IMG/VR virus record: IMGVR_UViG_3300009599_000081
Location: 1-20,497 of that record
From: a virus
Reading direction: 5' to 3' (one strand)
DNA: 20,497 bases
Shown here: positions 3,749 through 14,798 of the stretch, piece by piece
Position numbering within the stretch: the stretch's first letter is position 1
Layout: every line of letters begins with the position of its first letter
Position numbers and translations under genes: made by a program
Notes under the pieces: generated by a model
What the model was told of the DNA's origin: nothing
Seen by the model: only the letters and a program-made list of their open reading frames with translations
Databases searched by the model: none

Positions 3749-4140
3749 ACTGTTTTCCCTTTTATTTTCTCGTAAGTCCTTAGACCTCCAAGACCTAATA
3801 AGGATAAAGTTAAAGTCATAAGCTCCGCAGCTTGGATAGCTGGCAGCTCGACAGGAATTGTAAGGAAAGAGTTAATCAATCCAGCGAAGGGCAGGATCAG
3901 GAATTGGTACGCAAGACCAATAGCCGATACCCACCCTATAGCTGGTCTCCAGCCAGCGACCCACACAGATCGGTGTTTAGCCTCTTCTATGTTGATCATG
4001 GCTTGGAGGATGTGAGGCTTCTGAAGCATCTCTTCCATTCGGAAACGTGCCGCAGCTTTCTCTTCATCGGACGTAAATAAATCGTCCAGACCATTCATAA
4101 CTCCCTCAGCAATCCCAGCGAAAGGATTGAGTGAAGACAT
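3745..4140 (-). CDS. Holin, 3-TM type (GTA-holin-like)
   Basis: The 131-residue protein has an amphipathic N-terminal part (about 1-58), then hydrophobic segments around 63-80, 76-94 and 104-121, ending in a basic tail (YEKIKGK). The stretch VAGWRPAIGWVSAIGLAYQ is characteristic of the three-transmembrane holin family first described from gene transfer agents. It would make inner-membrane lesions that release the endolysin. It overlaps the endolysin start by four bases (ATGA) and has AAGGA upstream of its own ATG. It is unrelated to the T7 gp17.5 holin. Confidence 0.88.
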   Translation of the reverse strand: MSSLNPFAGIAEGVMNGLDDLFTSDEEKAAARFRMEEMLQKPHILQAMINIEEAKHRSVWVAGWRPAIGWVSAIGLAYQFLILPFAGLINSFLTIPVELPAIQAAELMTLTLSLLGLGGLRTYEKIKGKTV

Positions 4141-4389: not shown

Positions 4390-4590
4390 TTAATCCTCTG
4401 TTTTCTCCTTAATACGAATCCAATAATCACCTAAAGGGTTTTTAAAGTAAGGCGTATCGCCATCTTGAGGCTTCTCTTCAGTCACCGCCCCTTGATCATC
4501 ACGATAAACAATACTTTCAAAGTCTTTTAAGTATATCGGAGTTCCGTATAATTCAGTTTCATATTGAAATAAATTTTCTTTAGTAATCAT
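4390..4590 (-). CDS. Hypothetical protein, 66 residues
   Basis: I do not recognise this protein. It is small, soluble and acidic, beginning MITKENLFQY and ending WIRIKEKTED. I prefer the ATG at 4590: it overlaps the preceding stop as ATGA and has GGAAAG a few bases upstream. An ATG at 4602 would add four residues but overlap the upstream gene by 16 bases. It is followed after three bases by the coiled-coil membrane protein gene, so it belongs to the same operon between the adhesins and the lysis cassette. It could be a small tail-associated protein or a lysis regulator. Confidence 0.7.
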   Translation of the reverse strand: MITKENLFQYETELYGTPIYLKDFESIVYRDDQGAVTEEKPQDGDTPYFKNPLGDYWIRIKEKTED

Positions 4591-5234
4591 ACTGCTTTCC
4601 AATAAACGTACTTTCCACTTTCATCGACAATTTTAGCAGTTACAGGGGCAATCCCTAATAACCTTTTTTGCGTATCTTTTATTTGAGCTACGCCTAATGC
4701 AACCATCGTAGGGCTTGATGTCCTATTTTGCATATTTGTGTCTGGATCGTACAAAAAATATTCATCTTCATCAGCATTGTGGTCCAAATTATCAGGGTGA
4801 AAGCTTCTAATTGTTTCATTACCTTCATCATCTGTGGTTATAGAACCTGTCTGAATAAACGTGTTTAAATTTTGTAATTCAGCATGAGTTAGGCTATCTG
4901 TGTATTCTCTAGCATCTGCTTCATTATCAAACACTTTACCATCAATGCAGTGATACTCTTCAATAGTGTGGTCATTAAAGTAAGTAATTGCTTCTAATCG
5001 CGTAGGTAATTCGTCAGCCCAATCATACCAGCCTTGGATAGTATTATGACCATCTTCGTCATATTCATCAATAAAGGTTTCAAGGTACTCACGATTAGCA
5101 TCAGCTTTAAATGCAACACTTAACTCACCATAATCCCCCTCAGTAATGCCATTCATTTCAAACCAATGTGTAATAGCAGCCAAAGAACCCTCACAGGCTC
5201 CCATATCTTTAAAAAATTCTAATGTAACTTTCAT
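4587..5234 (-). CDS. Hypothetical acidic protein, 215 residues
   Basis: I do not recognise a function. The N-terminus (LEFFKDMGACEGSLAAITHWF, quoted without its first four residues) resembles a short Ala-Cys helical segment seen in assorted phage proteins of unknown function; this is a weak resemblance. The rest is strongly acidic and rich in aromatic residues (DEYDEDGHN, NADEDEYFLYDPD), with no membrane segment or signal peptide. The ATG overlaps the preceding adhesin stop by one base (TAATG). The position after two adhesin-like genes suggests a tail-fibre chaperone or tip component, but no sequence feature proves it. Confidence 0.75.
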   Translation of the reverse strand: MKVTLEFFKDMGACEGSLAAITHWFEMNGITEGDYGELSVAFKADANREYLETFIDEYDEDGHNTIQGWYDWADELPTRLEAITYFNDHTIEEYHCIDGKVFDNEADAREYTDSLTHAELQNLNTFIQTGSITTDDEGNETIRSFHPDNLDHNADEDEYFLYDPDTNMQNRTSSPTMVALGVAQIKDTQKRLLGIAPVTAKIVDESGKYVYWKAV

Positions 5235-5902
5235 TAGCCTACTGCCCCCATTGTTCTACTAGTATTTAAACCGCCGACAAAAGTGACAGAGTGTCCATTA
5301 GTCTGAACAGCCTTTCCTCCTTGGCCTCCAGACTGGACGTATGAAAAACGCGTCCCTGATGAGTAGCCCTGGCTGGTAGGATTTGCTATAAGTAATCTGT
5401 ATGCGTTACCACCACGAGCACCCCAGCCCCCTCCACTACAGGTTGCCCAATACTGCCAATCATAATCGTTAGACCCATACTTCCACCATGCGTTATTGTT
5501 AGATTTGTAAGGGGTTATATGATCCGCCTTCAGTTGGGTATAATCGTATCTGTACCACGTAGTGCCACCACTTGTTTCAACAGTGATATAACCATTAGTT
5601 TGCGCCCAGCTATCAGACTGATGATAGTTAATACGCTGCACAAAATTATCAACAGAATCATATCCTACTGCTGATCCAGCAGCTCCAGGATAACAAAATC
5701 TGTGATCTTGATAAAATACTATACCGCCTGATGTAGAGGAGTATGGAGTGTTTGTGCTAGTATTTAAATAACAAAAACCTGCTCTATTAGAAAGTCTCCC
5801 ATTATTTGTCTCACTTCCATCTGTTCCTGGCATTTTTCTGCCACCAGCGTAGCCATGTACAATCTGCCATTTCGTGTAATGGTCTGGTGTTGAACCGCCC
5901 AT
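5234..5902 (-). CDS. Glycine- and tryptophan-rich putative receptor-binding protein
   Basis: The 222-residue protein is rich in Gly, Ser, Tyr and Trp, as in phage tail-tip adhesins. The N-terminal 150 residues (HYTKWQIVHGYAGGRKMPG; AWWKYGSNDYDWQYWATC) are unfamiliar. The C-terminal part has SGGGWGARGG (156-165) and SGGQGGKAVQTNGHSVTFVG (191-210) and ends GAVG, closely matching the end of glycine-rich gp38-type adhesins that cap tail fibres. The ATG follows AAGGAG at good spacing. It is in the same reading frame as the upstream adhesin gene, only one TAA and five codons apart. It probably contacts the host surface. No enzyme motif is visible. Confidence 0.75.
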   Translation of the reverse strand: MGGSTPDHYTKWQIVHGYAGGRKMPGTDGSETNNGRLSNRAGFCYLNTSTNTPYSSTSGGIVFYQDHRFCYPGAAGSAVGYDSVDNFVQRINYHQSDSWAQTNGYITVETSGGTTWYRYDYTQLKADHITPYKSNNNAWWKYGSNDYDWQYWATCSGGGWGARGGNAYRLLIANPTSQGYSSGTRFSYVQSGGQGGKAVQTNGHSVTFVGGLNTSRTMGAVG

Positions 5903-5917
5903 AATTATACTCCTTAA

Positions 5918-6685
5918 TTAGACTGTGAATGGTTGTGTGGAACTCATGACACCGCCTGAACCACCTGCACCTGTTTGTACTGGTAGTTGAACGTAGTTAG
6001 TTCCATAGTTAGGGACTTCACTATTACCATACTTCCAAGATTGTGAAGGTTTGTTACCAACGGAAGGCACAGGGCATTGATCTGTCATATGCTCGTTACC
6101 TGCATTCCCGTCAGAGCCTGAAGTGTAAGGTTCGTTGTTTTTGTACTTACCACCTTCACCTCCACCAGCACCACCGCCAGCTAAGTGACCAGCACCACCG
6201 CCACCTCCACCACCTATATAGCCATTTCTGGTATCAATAGTCATATTTCCAGTGAGTTTAATCGCAGTGCCTCCGTCTGTAGCTGCGTCTGCGGAACTAA
6301 AGTAAGTTTCAGCAGGGGTTGTTATCCAAGTACCTCTTTCTCCTGTACCATTTGCATATATTTGACCTCGGCCACCTTTACCCATGATGTAACCATTGTT
6401 TACCAATGTAACACCTCCAGGAAAGGAGCCGCCCATATCTAATGCTGGTAGGGATGTACTATCAGACCAGATATATTTACCTGATCCGATAGTTACAGTA
6501 ACAGCACTAGAGCCATTCCATCCATTGTTTATACAGGTACTACGCAGATTTAGATTCTGCACATTACTACTAATGGTAAGTTCAAACCCACCTTCCCAAA
6601 TAGTAACATTGTCGAGCTTAAGTTCGTCAACGGATGAACCATTGAACTGCACTTCATTAATATTGTTTAAGTTGATTGTTGTCAT
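5918..6685 (-). CDS. Glycine-rich putative tail-tip adhesin
   Basis: The 255-residue protein starts with a short repeated beta pattern (INEVQFNGSSVDELKLDNVT then IWEGG) often seen at N-termini of marine phage tail-tip proteins. A beta-rich middle (about 34-150) follows, then a run of Gly at 157-180 (GGGGGGGAGHLAGGGAGGGE), as in receptor-recognition proteins that fold into polyglycine sandwiches. The end (GAGGSGGVMSSTQPFTV) lacks the usual final strand motif, which is instead found in the next gene. An excellent AGGAGG lies before the ATG. It lies ten bases after the second collagen-like fibre protein, so it may cap that fibre. Confidence 0.78.
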   Translation of the reverse strand: MTTINLNNINEVQFNGSSVDELKLDNVTIWEGGFELTISSNVQNLNLRSTCINNGWNGSSAVTVTIGSGKYIWSDSTSLPALDMGGSFPGGVTLVNNGYIMGKGGRGQIYANGTGERGTWITTPAETYFSSADAATDGGTAIKLTGNMTIDTRNGYIGGGGGGGAGHLAGGGAGGGEGGKYKNNEPYTSGSDGNAGNEHMTDQCPVPSVGNKPSQSWKYGNSEVPNYGTNYVQLPVQTGAGGSGGVMSSTQPFTV

Positions 6686-6695
6686 TCATAGCCTC

Positions 6696-7754
6696 CTATG
6701 TAGTGATATAAAGAACACCACCAGAGACAGAGAACGTAGCCCCAACAGCACCTTGGGGACCTGTAGCGCCTTGAGGACCAGTTGGACCTTGGGGACCTGT
6801 CGAACCTGTAGCCCCAGTATTTCCTGTAGGACCTTGTGGACCTATAGCTCCAGTATTACCAGTATTACCTTGAGGACCTGTAGAGCCTTGTGGACCTGCT
6901 GGACCTGTAGGACCTGTGTCTCCTTCTGGGCCTGTAGGACCTTGGGGACCTTGGGGACCAGTTGAACCAGTAGCTCCAGTATTCCCTGTAGGACCTTGGG
7001 GACCTGTAGGACCTTCTGCTCCATCATCTCCATCTGCACCAGCAGGGCCTTGGGAACCTGTCGAACCTGTAGCGCCTTGAGGACCTGTAGCACCTTGAGG
7101 ACCTGTAGCGCCTTGAGGACCTGTAGCGCCTATGGGTCCTATTGCACCTTGAGGACCTTCATCACCTTCAGGGCCTTGAGCACCTGTCGAACCAGTTGGT
7201 CCGTCATCCCCTTGAGGACCTTGGGGACCTGTAGGACCAGTTGGGCCTGTAGCTCCTTGTGGGCCTGTAGGACCTGTGGGTCCTTCATCGCCTTCTGCTC
7301 CAGTCGCACCTGTTGCGCCTGTTAAACCTTGGGGGCCTTGGGGACCTGTAGGACCAGCAGGCCCTTCGTCACCTTCTGCCCCTTGAGGGCCAGTTGCACC
7401 AGTTGAGCCTGTAGATCCTTGTGGACCAGTAGGACCAGTAGGGCCTTCATCGCCATCCGCACCTTGAGGGCCAGTTGCACCAGCAGGACCCTGTGGACCT
7501 GTGGCTCCAGTTGATCCCGTAGAACCCTGTGGCCCAGTCGCCCCTGTCGCCCCAGCAGCACCTGTATCGCCTTTCTCGGCAATCAGTTGCCAGATAGTAG
7601 CTTGAGCGCTTGGGATAGTACCAGCAGAAGATGCTTGAATGGCTACATAAGTGGAGCCTTGATACTCCACTGCGTCAAATACTTCATAGGCTTGTGTCGA
7701 ACTCCATGTTCCTTGGAGTGCAAAACGTACCTTACCTAAATTTAATGTTGGCAT
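6696..7754 (-). CDS. Collagen-like fibre protein with N-terminal carbohydrate-binding-like domain
   Basis: The protein has 352 residues. Residues 1-60 ([20 protein letters not shown], then [11 protein letters not shown]...P...IWQLIAEKG) have the spacing of small chitin/carbohydrate-binding-type modules found in phage fibres. Residues 62-340 are Gly-X-Y for 93 triplets without interruption, mostly GPQ, GPT, GAT and GST, with acidic blocks such as GDEG. Only about 12 residues ([12 protein letters not shown]) follow. It should form a rigid trimeric rod. With no C-terminal trimerisation domain, it may depend on the following adhesin as cap. The ATG overlaps the upstream fibre stop by one base, with GGAGG upstream. 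Low-complexity DNA here creates several spurious reading frames. Confidence 0.9.
6735..7571 (-). repeat. Collagen-like Gly-X-Y coding repeat, 93 triplets
   Basis: This is the repeat part of the second fibre protein. The DNA is a degenerate nine-base-periodic repeat dominated by codons for Gly-Pro-Gln, Gly-Pro-Thr and Gly-Ala-Thr. Larger modules recur, such as [15 protein letters not shown] near residues 256-270 and again near 310-322, pointing to growth by internal duplication. Confidence 0.95.
7072..7125 (-). repeat. Three near-identical 18-bp tandem repeats inside the fibre gene
   Basis: Units 7072-7089, 7090-7107 and 7108-7125 differ by one base (G/A at the third position of each unit) and encode consecutive Gly-Ala-Thr-Gly-Pro-Gln units. 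Gain or loss of units would keep the reading frame and only change rod length. Confidence 0.9.
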
Positions 7755-9286
7755 TAGATAGTTACCTCCAATTCGCCATCTGAATTAATTGAAAAATCTT
7801 GGTCATCAGCGTCACCATAATATTCTACAGAAAGAGCACCTGTAGATGCGTTCAAAACAAAACGTCCAAATGATAAACCAAGTGGGCTTGTACCCATTGG
7901 ACCTTGGCTACCTGTAGAGCCTGTTGGACCTACTGGACCTTGGTCACCATCAGGTCCTTTATTACCTAAATCCCCTTGGATACCCTGCGGACCTTGTGGG
8001 CCTGTTGGGCCAGTTGCACCAATAGGACCTTGAGAACCTGTAGTACCTATAGGACCTTGAGAGCCTACTGGACCTTGAGGACCTGTATCGCCTGTATCGC
8101 CTTTCTCGCCCTGTGGCCCAGTTGGACCTAATGGACCTGCGCTACCTGTAGGACCTTGAGCACCTGTGGCTCCAGAAGTACCTTGAGGACCTTGATCACC
8201 TGTAGCGCCTTGGGGTCCTTGTGCCCCAGTTGGGCCGGTAGGACCAGTGTCGCCAGTATCACCCTTAGTACCTTGAGGACCTGTAGGACCTAAAGGACCT
8301 GCATTACCTTGAGGACCTTGAGGACCTGTATCACCTGTGGGGCCTATTTGACCTTGAGCGCCTGTAGAACCTTGAAGACCTACTTCACCTTGAGGACCTA
8401 TGGGACCTGTTTCGCCTGCTATACCCTGTGGACCTTGGTCACCTGTCACACCTTGTAAACCAGTTGGTCCTACTGGACCTGTCTCACCTCTAGGGCCTTG
8501 AGCACCATCGACACCTTGAATGCCTGTAGGGCCTGCTGGGCCTGTATCACCTGTGGGGCCAATAGGACCTCTTGGGCCAATAACGCCTTGAGGACCTGTG
8601 GGACCTGCTGGACCTGTAGCACCTGATGGACCTTGCTCACCTATTGGGCCTTGTGGGCCTTCAGATAGTGAGAAGGTTAGTACACCTGTGTTAGCATCGT
8701 AGACTACAGTACCTGTTTGCCCATAAGGTAATGCAACAAGTTCAGTAGTTAAGTTGTACAGTTCATCACGGATCTGCGAAACATCATTTGTATCAATACT
8801 TGCTTGAGCTGCGGCTGCTAATATTTCATCGGTTACCGAAATAATCTGGTCACGAGTGCCTTTAGCATAGCCCATAGTAGCGGCATCTGAATCGTTGACA
8901 GGTTCAGATAGGTTGGTAATGCGCTTGGTTTTACCATTAAAATTAGCATCAGCACCTTCTGACAAAGAAAAATCTGATACGTCTTTAGCTTCTTGTGCAG
9001 CTTGTAAAACTTGTCTTGCTGCTAGATCCAAGTCTTCTGCTCTCAATAAAGAAGCAGAGCTAAAGCTAACAATAGGATCTGTAAGGTTTGTATTACGTTT
9101 GACAGTAACAAGAGACCCCAATTCAGGGGCCTCGTTTAGTGTTACTATGTTTGCGGATGATAAGCTCCAAGCCGAACTTTCTGTGCCATTAATTTCGACT
9201 GTAAGCTCACTGTCATCTAAGTAAGAAAAATCGAAAGGGATGTTTGGGTTACCATCCGAAACTATTTTCAATATTGCATAAGCCAT
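7754..9286 (-). CDS. Tail fibre protein with gp17-like N-terminus and collagen-like shaft
   Basis: The protein has 510 residues. Residues 1 to about 150 match the T7 gp17 virion-attachment domain in pattern (start MAYAILKIV, then [41 protein letters not shown]). A helical and beta linker follows (150-209). Residues 210-465 are Gly-X-Y for 86 triplets without a break. The C-terminal 45 residues ([20 protein letters not shown] onward) look beta-rich and resemble a short strand unit also present just before the collagen part ([15 protein letters not shown]). It should anchor at the tail and carry a long rigid shaft. It differs from T7 gp17, which has a beta-helical shaft and a knob tip. The ATG lies two bases after the gp16 stop, with AGGA upstream. 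Confidence 0.93.
7892..8659 (-). repeat. Collagen-like Gly-X-Y coding repeat, 86 triplets
   Basis: This is the shaft of the first fibre protein. A longer module, [11 protein letters not shown] then KGDTGDTGP, occurs twice (residues about 329-348 and 383-402), with Thr or Glu at the variable position. The register of glycine is unbroken from residue 210 to 465. Confidence 0.95.
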
Positions 9287-9288
9287 AA

Positions 9289-12200
9289 TTAATTTCCTGT
9301 TAATGGGGCATTAAGCTCATTGTATACTTCAATTAGCTTTTGTCCTTCGGGAGACATTGCCATGTCGCCTGCTGCTTCTACGTGCTGTACAGCAAGCGCT
9401 AGCTTTGGGTTATCAGCAATAACTCGCTGCAAAGCTTCATCCTTGGCTTCTTGAATGATAGCTCTAAGAATCGCGTCTTTTTTCCCTTTGAACTCTACAA
9501 ATTTTCTGTCGCCTGTACTCAGCCTAATTTTAATGTTTGGCGTTGCACCAGCATACTCATACCTACGAGTAGTTACAGCTTCATGCAAAGCTTCTCGTAA
9601 GGTCTTACCTCCAAATTTCTCTAGGCCAGTGTTACCAAGTATAAAGTTAAATTGGTCATACGCTGAACGATTATCTGGATATAGTGGTTTACCTGTAGGA
9701 CTAGTCCTAAACTCAGGGGAATGCATATCAACCAATCCCCCAGCTATTTTAGGAGACTGTTTTGTTACAGTTATCCCTTGGTTTTGGAAAGCTACGCTTA
9801 CTGGATCAGTTTTAACCTTACCTGTCATAATTGGACTAGCCATATCTTCGATAAACTCAGGGAATACACCTGCTGTGGCGTAGTTAGTCTTAGGTATTGG
9901 TTCACCTAAAATGTTATAACGAGGGGGTACATCCTGTCTAATACCAGGAATTTTTGACTTTATAGCATCTAGGTAGGTTCGCGATTCCCTTTGGTAAGGG
10001 TCATTATACGCAGAAATAGTTCCAAGCATACCTGACATTGGGACTATCTGTCCTGTGCGACCCTTCAAGAATTTTTCAAAACCTGCTTCAGATTGCATAG
10101 AGTACATAAGCTGACGTACAGAAGTACCATAGGTTTCATTAGCCATCATATTAGCAAGGCCCAAAGCAGCAGCTACATATACTTCCTCTGCTTCTTCAAA
10201 CTTACCAGCACGAGTGAACTCTTGGATAAGACCAACCATTTCTAACTGAGAAGAGAACGGATCGGCACGGGATATTTGATACTGTTGACCATCGGGGGTT
10301 AGTATAGATCCATAAATTATCCCACCAACCTCTTGCATATTCTGACGTTCACCAACATTTGTAGGCCCTGCCCCTCTCATTTGGTACTCACCATACTCAC
10401 TACCATCATCAAATTCCCAGCCACTCTCAGTGGATTGAGTCAACCATGAAGCCATGATAGCAGTGCCGTAGGCATAGCGTACCATTGCTAGAGCTGAACG
10501 CTCACCACCAGCCGCCATATCTTCTCTCCAACGTCCACTAGCAAAAGCCAAAGGACTACGTTGGATAAGGTCTGAGTGTAGATTTAAAGGTGTACGGACA
10601 AATGGGAATATCTGACGCATTAAAGGAACTTTCTCAACCATATTTTGGAATGACTGAGAACCAGTACCTAATTGCTGAGTGAAAGTACCTTCTTGAGCGT
10701 ATTGTAAAGCATCTTCCCCATAAGGAGACTTTCTGGCATTTTTACTAAGAGTGCCATTAGCTACTCTGAATTGCTCTTTGACTGCAAAATCAACTGCTTT
10801 TTCTGCCTCTGTGTGTAAGAACGACTCTAGCTCTTCACCTTTTAAGCCCTTTTCTTTTGCAGATTTTCTTAAATCTCGTCTAGCTAAAGAATAAACTTGG
10901 CCTTGGAAGTTTAACTGCTTGAAGAACTCGTCTTCCATTGTAAGCGCACGAGTAGACACTGCGCGAATAGTAGTGCCAAACAAGTCAACCATAGTACCTG
11001 TAGGATTTTCCTTCATCCATGTACCTAAGTTTTCAAGGGTATTCTTATCAAAGGCTAAATCTTTACCGATAACAGCTTTACCCTGATCTTCATAAGTATG
11101 ATGATTATCTAGTTGTGCTTGGCCTATCTTGTAGGCTTTGCCAGCATAGTTCCACGAACTGGATAAAGCGTATCGCATACCTATGAACTGATCCACACCA
11201 GCTTGCCAAGTTTCCTTAGCGCCTTGTGTATCACCTACAGATAGACGTAAACCAGCAGCCGCTAAACGCTCCGTTGGTACAGCAATAGCTTTGGCAGCGT
11301 TAGAAGTAGGGTTGATAACGTGTGTCTTAAAGCCAGATAGGATACTTGTTATAAATATTTCATCTAGTGCTTTAAGAGACTTACTACCAACACGCAGCAT
11401 ATAAGCAGCCGAGCGATTTACAAAGCTGTTACGCGCCTTATCACTAGGTAAGTTATCTAGTAATTCATCAAAGTGGCGTTGTACTGCATATTCAGGAACA
11501 TTAAAGTTCTGGAACAACTTGGACACCTGAACTGCGCGGCCCAGTGATTTTCCTGCACCTCGAAAAGCATAAACAGAGCTTAGGTAGTCTAGCTGCACAT
11601 CGTGGTAAATCTTCTGGTCTTTCTCGAACTGAATCTGCAACTCTTTAAGTAGAGTAACTTTATCAGCTTCAGTAAGGTCTTGGCGTTCAGCAATCTTCCT
11701 AATTTTAGCTTCGTTCTCTGCGCGGATAATCCGCCAGTTTTGGGAAGCAACTGCAAAGTTTTTAGAAGTCATTTGTAGTACACGGCCCATAGCAGTGTAT
11801 ACAATGTCCTTTTCATGAGCATTGGGATAAGCAAGGTCTAGTGCTTGCAGATTTTCTTTTACAGAAGCTACATCGTCAAAGTGTTCTGCAATAACATCAT
11901 CAGCTTGGCGTATTAACTGTTTATTAGTCTTGTGTACGCCATAGCCAGTTTCCTGACCTATCTGATCAAACTCAGTATCACCTACAGCTTTTTTAGTGCC
12001 AGCTTCTGCTTCAACACGAGCTGATTGTTTAGCTGCGGCAATAGTAGCAGGACTTAAAACAGCCTTATTAGCATCAATACGCTTGTAGGTTTGCTGTAGT
12101 TTAGTCTGCGCTCGGGACGCTTTCAGCATCTTAGCTTCAAGTTCATCTAGACTGACACCTACTTTAGCGCCTGCTTCTTCAATGAACTTCTCTAAAGCCT

Positions 12201-13104
12201 CAATATCTGTAGGATCTGCTTTGAGACCTTTGCGATATGCGTTTACAACCTTAACAGTAGCGAAAAGGCCCATACCTGCACCTTCCATACCCAGAGCTTC
12301 TATAGCCATCTTAAAACGAGCTTCAGCTTCTGTGTCTTCGGGGTCAGATTGTAAGTATTCAGTTATCGGATTTTGCAGACTTGGGAAGTCTTGAACTAGA
12401 TCTGACAAACGTGCTTCATAAGGATCAAAAGCAATTTGCTCACCAATGATACCTTGTGCAGCAAGGCTTGTTCCACTGTTTAGGTTCTTTACGCCTGCGG
12501 CTTTCCCAGCGCCACGAGTCATAAGTAGACCAGAAGCAAACTGAGACAGCCCTCCTACTATATTAGCTGTTGCTGTCTCTAAATTGAATACTTGTACAGC
12601 GTCGTCAGGTAATTCAGATGCTATTACATTACCCTCTGCATCGTAGGGAGATTTATTCTTAGTCCAGTACATCGTACTATCAGTAAAGTGTAAATAACCT
12701 GAATTATGTACATACTTTTGGAATAAATCATCAGCAGCGTAATATAGACCTCCAGAAAGATTATTAACTAATTTATTAGTTTGTCCTAAAGCTTTGCTAG
12801 CACCAAAAATTACGCCTTCAGGTGTTTCTGCAATGTGCTTCAAGATGCCGTAATTAGGGTCTTCTTCTTGGACTGTCTCTCCAGCTTGTTCAGGAATTTC
12901 TGTAGTTGTTTCTTTTTCCTCACCTACTGTCGCAACAGTTTGTTCAGGTGGAGGAGTAATAGGTTGTTGTTGGGATAAGCTCTGCGCTTCAGCTTCTAGC
13001 TCCTGCATTAATTGCATTTCGTCTAGTTCCTGTTGCAGAGCTTCCTCTAGGCTATTCTCTGGATCGTCCACAACTCGTTGTAGATCATCAATAATATCAG
13101 CCAC
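9289..13104 (-). CDS. Internal virion protein D (T7 gp16-like)
   Basis: This 1271-residue protein belongs to the ejected inner core that forms the DNA conduit across the cell envelope. Length and position match T7 gp16 (1318 residues). The N-terminus is acidic and Gln-rich (1-85). I see no lytic transglycosylase motif there, unlike T7 gp16. A helical region follows (about 270-350 and 420-520), then the central block [20 protein letters not shown] (near 580-600), typical of gp16 proteins of marine T7-like phages, and a C-terminal region with [12 protein letters not shown]. The start codon is GTG at 13104-13102, the first possible start after an in-frame TAA six bases upstream, with GGAG at correct spacing. 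No other start is needed. Confidence 0.93.
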
Positions 13105-13118
13105 AATTTATCTCCGTG

Positions 13119-14798
13119 TTAAGGCATGTTTGTTAATGTTTCCATAGTTGGCTTTGGCTGTAAGGGGATCGGGTTATCAGGATTCATAAACTCCTGACGC
13201 TCTCTAAATGGCATTTTAGAGCCATCCGCATTTACAATGCTTTCAATCTGTTTAGCACGTTCCATGATCTCAACTAATTTTTGGAACTTTTCTGCTTGGG
13301 TCATTTGATCCCACATATAACCAGAACCATCTGGTGTTTTTCTGTGATACAAGTCAAAATACTCAGTCTTAAATAAAGTAAATCGAGTTGCTTTTGTGTC
13401 TGTAAAATTATCTGCAAAGCCTGTGAACAGTCCTGGCCTAAAGGTACTTGCTACAGGATCTTTAGTAGCATCCCTTGGCCTTTCCCCTCGTTCAACGTAT
13501 TGTGCGTTAGAGACAGCTAGATTCATTAGTTTGTTAAGTGTTGCACTATCGGTAACTTGTTTATTAGTAACTAAGTTCACTACTTCTTGAATTTGCCTTT
13601 CAGCAGGGGTAGCAAGTATGTGCTGTTGTACTCTTGCTTGAGCCTCAAGAGACATAGGTTCAGTTGTAAAGTTGCTTACGAACTTCTCTTTAAGCTCCTC
13701 CATGTCTACAGCTAAGGTAGGGTGAAAATGTAACCATTGATTAACTACTTCGTCACCATACGTTGCTCTAGCGTCAATCATGATTTTATTCACACTACGC
13801 TCATTCCTTGAAAACGCATTCATAAATACTTGGTGAATGTTGTCTAAAGTAGTTTTAGTATTCCAAGTTATTTCTTTCCTCTTACGCTCTTCTGCTTTCC
13901 ACCTAGCATCAGCAAACTTTGTACGAGTCTCTGCTAATTTAACCTGAGCATACCTAGTACCAGCTAGGTTGCCTGTACCGCCACTTGTGGCTTGTAAGGC
14001 TTTCTGAAGACCATCTATGTCATTCCCTGCTTGTGCATAATAATCAATTAAAGCATCTACAGTTTTCTTGTTTTGAGCACTGTAGTTGTAATTTATACCG
14101 CCTGATTGGGCTAGGTCTGCTTGCTTTAATGCTAAAGTAGTTTGATAGTTAATTACTGAATCAGGATCATCGAAATCAACATTAGCAACAGAGTGGAAAA
14201 TATAGTTAGCATATGCGGTGTCTGTAACTTCCTCAAAGTTGCTATTAGAAGTTGCAATATGTTGAGACAATAAGTTCTGTCTAGCTTGGTTAGCTACTTT
14301 ATCAAAGCTTGGGAAAGCACCTTCCAGTCCTAGTACACCTTGGTTATTGGCTACATAATCTTCATAATACTTATTGTACCAATCATTAAACGTAGAGCTG
14401 TCTATTGCTTCAGTTAAACCTGATCGTGCATAGTCTTGACTTACTGATTGTATAAACTCATTGCCAGCTATACCGCCCCTAGTCTCGTTAAAAGCGAAAC
14501 GGAATATAGGACTTTCTGCTGGATCTATGGTTCCGTTTGCAACCAGTTCATCATAAGCAGCCGTAGAAGTCTTTGCTATTTCTACAGCACGAAGTCTATC
14601 TGCTTCTTGTTCTGCTTTCCTATCTCGGTCAAACTTAGCTTGTAGCGTTGGTTCAACTTTATTTAGGAAGTTAGATAATTCTCTAAGCCCACCCTCTTGG
14701 ACAGGCGCTGGTTGTACATATGTATTTACTGGGCGAACTATAACACTCTGCTGTGTTAGCGGTCGCAACCTTTGTACAGGCGTTCTTTTAGTTGCCAT
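13119..14798 (-). CDS. Internal virion protein C (T7 gp15-like)
   Basis: The 559-residue protein is assigned by its position between gp14-like and gp16-like genes and by its composition: long, soluble, helical, with Gln- and Ala-rich segments (KFDRDRKAEQEADRLRAVEI; ARWKAEERKRKEI). It would form the periplasmic part of the ejection channel with gp14 and gp16. The early region (IFRFAFNETRGGIAGNEFIQ) resembles other gp15-like proteins. It is shorter than T7 gp15 (747). The gene starts six bases after the gp14-like stop with only a weak AGAGAG upstream, and ends 14 bases before the GTG start of gp16. Confidence 0.85.
   Translation of the reverse strand: MATKRTPVQRLRPLTQQSVIVRPVNTYVQPAPVQEGGLRELSNFLNKVEPTLQAKFDRDRKAEQEADRLRAVEIAKTSTAAYDELVANGTIDPAESPIFRFAFNETRGGIAGNEFIQSVSQDYARSGLTEAIDSSTFNDWYNKYYEDYVANNQGVLGLEGAFPSFDKVANQARQNLLSQHIATSNSNFEEVTDTAYANYIFHSVANVDFDDPDSVINYQTTLALKQADLAQSGGINYNYSAQNKKTVDALIDYYAQAGNDIDGLQKALQATSGGTGNLAGTRYAQVKLAETRTKFADARWKAEERKRKEITWNTKTTLDNIHQVFMNAFSRNERSVNKIMIDARATYGDEVVNQWLHFHPTLAVDMEELKEKFVSNFTTEPMSLEAQARVQQHILATPAERQIQEVVNLVTNKQVTDSATLNKLMNLAVSNAQYVERGERPRDATKDPVASTFRPGLFTGFADNFTDTKATRFTLFKTEYFDLYHRKTPDGSGYMWDQMTQAEKFQKLVEIMERAKQIESIVNADGSKMPFRERQEFMNPDNPIPLQPKPTMETLTNMP

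Follow-up and report, generated by a model that had tools for sequence, protein, structure and literature searches.

Genes A and B of a T7-like phage record as a probable inherited two-chain gp38-type adhesin

Main finding

The window, i.e., the whole stretch of DNA analysed (IMG/VR virus record IMGVR_UViG_3300009599_000081, positions 1 to 20,497; 20,497 nucleotides), contained two adjacent genes, A and B, which together were one gp38-type adhesin in two pieces. The preferred reading, given a probability of roughly 0.8, is that A and B constitute an inherited two-chain gp38-type adhesin, being separately translated subunits of one predicted receptor-binding tip. The features concerned are listed in Table 1.

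Table 1. Adhesin genes, junction signals, and neighbouring genes in the window
Feature	Position	Strand	Evidence
Tail fibre, T7-type N-terminal domain plus collagen-like repeats	7754..9286	(-)	Pfam Phage_T7_tail 9.5e-24, Collagen 2.4e-40
Collagen-like fibre protein, immediately 5' of A	6696..7754	(-)	Pfam Collagen 1.2e-44; PHROG tail fibre families
Gene A, 255 aa, gp38-type adhesin front part (beta domain, first glycine-rich motifs)	5918..6685	(-)	ORF; motifs; match to PHROG tail-fibre family phrog_11439, E 1.3e-8; homologous split A proteins; gp38 fold in model
Stop codon TAA of gene A	5918..5920	(-)	Read from sequence
AAGGAG, Shine-Dalgarno-like site of B, 7 nt before its ATG	5910..5915	(-)	Sequence; SD-like cores in relatives too
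Gene B, 222 aa, adhesin back part (GGRxxPG, GGGWGA, GGKAxxxNG...GAVG motifs)	5234..5902	(-)	ORF; motif order versus intact homologues; homologous split B proteins
Gene C, 215 aa, conserved neighbour; one-base overlap of its start with B's stop	4587..5234	(-)	In split relatives, homologues immediately follow B

General features of the window

The window reads as a T7-like podovirus from its T7-type fibre N-terminus together with an internal virion protein (9289-13104), a holin, and an endolysin, the last three found by PHROG/Pfam searches; a short stretch of terminase DNA resembled that of Roseobacter phage CRP-125 (78% over 192 bases). Gene A came after two collagen-like fibre genes, and the nearer one is, from its position, a possible fibre carrying the A/B tip.

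Several further observations concerned these neighbouring genes. The collagen-like fibres of the window (6696-7754), L018 (13401-14801), and L036 (9319-10752) were near-identical over their first ~65 residues, but their C-terminal tips differed, which points to an exchange of tips at that place; among these three, a separate A-B-C set followed in the window only. The L036 homologue of tail tubular protein B was found as two overlapping ORFs (3-569 and 553-1776), by frameshift or assembly error. The window also contained a 559-residue ORF (13119-14798) within the virion gene block, with no PHROG or Pfam match, and a PhoH-like gene (2159-2869; GPAGTGKT) read by eye from its translation.

The A-B junction

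Five codons (TTA AGG AGT ATA ATT) lay between A's TAA and B's ATG (5902-5900), and A, spacer, and B were all in one frame, giving 483 residues if the TAA is read as an amino acid. The sequence-only reading had described this shared frame, the TAA with five AAGGAG-holding codons, and a read-through length of about 483 residues, and each was confirmed; the window stop codon is known from one metagenome-derived record. The 130 intact adhesin ORFs, 148,239 nt in all, contained 47 cases (overlapping matches and duplicate loci counted in) in which an ATG of any frame was preceded at 4-9 nt by AGGAG, GGAGG, or AAGGA, taken as SD-like cores. At that density, roughly 0.8% of random nonsense mutations would be followed by such a signal within 24 nt. 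The SD-like site plus ATG after A's stop was more than chance.

A and B match the front and back of intact homologues

Gene A carried the Gly runs GGGGGGGAG, AGGGAGGG, and GAGGSGG, and B contained GGGWGARGG and GGKAVQTNGHSVTFVGG...GAVG. The 15 IMG/VR loci of A each had a single open frame through the region, mostly of 280-400 residues stop to stop (L012 was cut by a contig end, L006 and L011 were longer, and L014 equalled L015 in sequence). The motif order in single-ORF homologues was YIWSD..NNGYIMGKGG, YIGGGGGGG..GGGGAGGG, GGRIxPG, GGGWGA, and GGKAxxxNG..V..YGAVS: the first two corresponded to A and the last three to B. The window aside, 35 complete ORFs had the first motif, and all four downstream motif patterns (in loose form) were found in 27 of them, with one or two patterns missing in the other 8; 6 further ORFs were cut by contig ends.

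The uninterrupted homologues that the sequence-only reading had proposed looking for were thus found, with the gp38-like Gly runs of A at the front and the GWG and back-end motifs of B at the back of single ORFs, in the order expected of one adhesin split in two. It had also named a case against itself, namely relatives in which the two genes are clearly independent and have full-length homologues of their own. This applies only partly: relatives do encode A and B separately, but each of the two is homologous to a portion of a single intact protein.

Other searches gave 3 partial matches for A in phage records, no match for the B and C of the window, L042 B, or L216 C among 50,697 phage records, no match for L216 B among plasmids, no family profile match for B in PHROG and Pfam searches, and no pattern match for window B alone in viral contigs; a search with a B alignment returned 600 stretches, none of which was a confirmed relative.

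Structural and profile comparison with gp38

Known gp38-type adhesins have N-terminal attachment helices capping a trimeric fibre, and the host receptor is bound via distal loops. An AlphaFold2 model was built for the read-through chain of the window, artificially joined, from a 73-row alignment (mean pLDDT 65, pTM 0.67). Confidence was high at residues 31-110 and 131-180 in A, pLDDT was 70-96 at residues 411-483 (the end of B), and confidence was low at residues 187-404 (mostly under 50) and at A residues 1-30. The two best fold matches of this model were (i) S16 gp38 (6f45_D; Z 18.9, rmsd 4.0, 213 of 248 residues, model range 3-483; Foldseek 8.1e-4) and (ii) PP01 gp38 (9v85_C; Z 18.6, rmsd 2.6, 197 of 222 residues; Foldseek 4.4e-5), and the next-best row had Z 6.2. 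The match took in A plus the end of B. With the caution that the chain is a joined one and the mean pLDDT only 65, the model predicts the gp38 fold, a beta-helix domain with glycine-rich excursions, in agreement with the earlier proposal of one adhesin split in two.

Homology to solved gp38 is likewise indicated by profile A4 (the alignment used for the model), which matched 6f45_D with E 1.6e-6; the smaller profile A1 gave E 0.042, and profile A2 (B alone) gave no match to solved gp38. In the Pfam search with PF05268 (GP38), window A and B had no match at E 0.001, and L216 A scored 19.9 bits, under the curated cut-off of 25. Known gp38 is a single polypeptide and the window has two ORFs with separate starts, so the pair was filed as a two-chain gp38 variant, not as ordinary gp38.

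As described in excerpts of PMC6851490, the S16 gp38 chain exits the beta-helix twice, both excursions make the polyglycine sandwich, and the second is a stretch of 77 residues forming helices 3-10 before the chain goes back into the beta-helix. From the motif order set against this layout, the A/B break would fall in the second excursion.

Recurrence of the split

The sequence comparison was applied to 222 sequences (221 loci plus the window) among the matches listed. These included 196 ORFs with the front domain, again among the matches listed: (i) 130 intact, (ii) 39 with the back half in a separate ORF downstream, (iii) 18 cut by contig ends, and (iv) 9 others, of which 8 were intact by eye and one (L135) was of the split type. 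Merging of duplicates by the last 60 residues of A reduced the 39 split entries to 29 distinct ones, and removal of L219, a false split call whose second gene was not real, left at least 28 distinct split loci, the window being one of them. Split loci occurred in Rhodobacterales assemblies of Marivita, Defluviimonas, Loktanella, Salibaculum, Ruegeria, and Sulfitobacter, and marine lysogens with the locus include Ruegeria intermedia DSM 29341 and Loktanella sp. PT4BL; among 394 genomes sampled from the family of G005, the A alignment matched G005 alone.

Twenty-six compact junctions were tabulated, with the window in and L215 (insertion) and L145 (broken A frame) out. All 26 had an SD-like core plus ATG after A's stop, with a gap of 9-24 nt. 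The stop codons of A were TAG in 18, TAA in 5, and TGA in 3, and the offset of B relative to A was 0 in 10, 1 in 2, and 2 in 14; B was therefore out of A's frame in 16 of the 26, and sharing a frame, as in the other 10, is not special. Beyond the compact junctions, the A-B spacer of L232 was longer, and L215 carried an IS110-like transposase ORF (named by eye) between A (ending at 2666) and B (starting at 3973), with B retaining its own SD and ATG despite the insertion. Damaged copies were seen as well: in L149, B was interrupted near its beginning by an in-frame stop (B's start was placed by hand at an ATG 12 nt after A's stop, with AAGGAG by eye 8 nt before the ATG), and the A frame was broken in L145 and L233, the latter sharing one genome with L232, whose A was open. 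The recurrent split, the varied frames, stops, and spacers, and the SD plus ATG retained by B argue that the two-gene arrangement is inherited and that no gene has been broken here.

The B genes varied in length (222 aa in the window, 158-169 aa in most split relatives, longer still in L045 and L192, and shorter in L096). Window B was distant, with 29-40% identity to most split B proteins, which counts against the two-chain reading.

Phylogeny, selection, and co-divergence

The front-domain tree comprised 118 rows, 23 of them split (quick method, 92% identity filter), and the split label required 3 changes on it versus 21.3 in shuffles. Constraining all split rows together beat the free quick search (lnL +10.8, p-AU 0.62), and so did the same constraint without L096 (lnL +24.8, p-AU 0.81); these AU tests do not reject one clade, with the split arising once. 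L096 may have been split separately. The nearest tree row of the window by path length was the intact L056, a further point against the two-chain reading. The tree gives no direction, and the intact form is taken as ancestral from its wider spread.

The dN/dS ratio was calculated for a chosen Rhodobacterales-type subset (11 A and B genes paired, 8 C genes; window outside the set, as too distant for this ratio) with saturated or failed pairs left out. The medians for A, B, and C were 0.15, 0.17, and 0.13, based on the 37 of 55, 28 of 55, and 15 of 28 pairs, respectively, that were usable. For 22 loci (231 pairs; window again outside the set), the pairwise identities of A and B correlated with r 0.80, with 0 of 2000 permutations as high, and B diverged more than A (mean identity 0.62 versus 0.72). 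Free exchange of B between lineages was unsupported, since A and B diverged in step.

Gene C

Homologues of C directly followed B in split relatives, most of them overlapping B's stop codon. A C search motif, built from split members, was found downstream in 33 of the 39 split entries versus none of the 130 intact ORFs, 120 of which had 1,200 nt or more of downstream sequence. Of the six split entries without it, L134, L039, L132, and L145 ended too soon, L096 had another next gene, and L219 was the false call. A profile search for C gave weak matches in three intact loci (L084, L190, and L115), and many intact loci were seen by eye to have a comparable 'FNPxTGxY' stretch in a shorter protein encoded downstream; the idea that C is tied exclusively to split adhesins was weakened by both.

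The C model (mean pLDDT 88) was helical in its front part and contained a pair of similar beta-beta-helix-beta-beta units, with no clear PDB fold match (best Z 3.8; Foldseek best E 0.13). Window C had no PHROG, Pfam, or NCBIfam family match, and C alone as the query gave 23 stretches with no relative among them; C was found in 3 of 390 genomes sampled from the order of G005, 2 of the 3 being already in the set. The fibre chaperones of phages V22 and Pam3 are encoded downstream (excerpts of PMC7289586 and PMC9608196), which makes an assembly role a natural guess, and C may by analogy be an assembly factor.

Discussion

In the two-chain reading, A and B would lie on one message, and B would be translated separately via its own start, by re-initiation or direct initiation. 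The two chains, not joined by a peptide bond, would then come together: the final strands of B would close A's beta domain, and glycine-rich segments of both chains would complete the polyglycine sandwich, with the break in a variable loop; C may help folding or assembly of A plus B. The wider proposal, that a lineage of phages and prophages makes a single receptor-binding domain out of two chains that are translated independently and interlock in a polyglycine lattice, with C as the dedicated assembly factor, is put forward tentatively and with the odds leaning against it. As part of this proposal, a break in the variable loop would leave two chain ends there and may allow longer, glycine-poor receptor loops than in one-chain gp38.

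It is unlikely that B is instead a separate protein (second adhesin, cap, or helper) that does not complete A's fold, leaving A alone as the tip. B is indeed its own gene and the more divergent of the two, and helpers follow some fibre proteins (excerpts of PMC7289586 and PMC9608196), but the motif order of B agrees with that of the C-terminal portion of intact homologues, the gp38 match of the joined-chain model needs B's end for completion, the two genes diverge in step, and the helper position is already occupied by C.

Fused synthesis by stop read-through, which the sequence-only reading had offered as an option, is not supported. The frame is open across the window stop and 10 compact junctions are in frame, but at the 16 others read-through cannot fuse the products; TAG, TAA, and TGA are all used, the spacers of L232 and L215 are longer or interrupted, and B's own SD plus ATG make read-through unnecessary. 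Frame, stop codon, and spacer evidence rule it out as the normal route, and it is very improbable that this phage makes some fused A-B in that way beside free A.

Least probable of all is a single adhesin gene broken by recent nonsense mutation, decay, or sequencing or assembly error: one frame, one stop, a metagenome-derived record, and the damage in L149, L145, and L233 fit it, but it was rejected on the same-place split in at least 27 other distinct loci, including several Rhodobacterales genera; against it also stand conserved start signals, low dN/dS in the subset, and an SD plus ATG expected after roughly 0.8% of random stops.

The two-chain adhesin can be compared with four known systems. 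With gp38 of T-even-like phages (S16, PDB 6F45; PP01, PDB 9V85; Pfam PF05268), it shares the fold in the read-through model, the profile match to 6f45_D, and the combination of a beta domain with glycine-rich segments that variable stretches separate; it differs in having two chains instead of one, in that the window family stays below the PF05268 cut-off, in that even the single-chain homologues of this family are longer, and in adjoining collagen-like fibres in a T7-like phage. Pam3 gp24 with its chaperone gp25 offers a glycine-rich distal domain and an adjoining helper gene, but gp24 is a single-chain trimeric fibre and gp25 resembles Mu Tfa, whereas C is without a PDB fold match (excerpts of PMC9608196). 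In the V22 fibre, the receptor-binding protein gp26 is followed by the ~20 kDa gp27 gene, needed for gp26 maturation, but gp26 is not reported to be split, and gp27 is likened to C by position and size (PMC7289586); V22 is a marine phage and Pam3 a cyanophage. LtfA/LtfB of the T5-like phages DT57C and DT571/2, with two proteins sharing a fibre function that one protein has in a relative, is the nearest precedent found for a two-chain adhesin, but both Ltf proteins are said to have receptor-recognition domains in a branched fibre, whereas A and B divide one domain (PMC4728585). A literature search confined to open-licence PMC papers found no report of a naturally split gp38-type adhesin.

Host range in many phages is set by gp38-type tips (excerpts of PMC6851490 and PMC12892980). 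Gene pairs of the A/B type resemble either one broken gene or a pair of unrelated hypothetical proteins, which is a warning for annotation. A natural two-chain gp38, if true, would reveal at which point the polyglycine sandwich can bear a break, and whether separate chains can build such a glycine-rich lattice.
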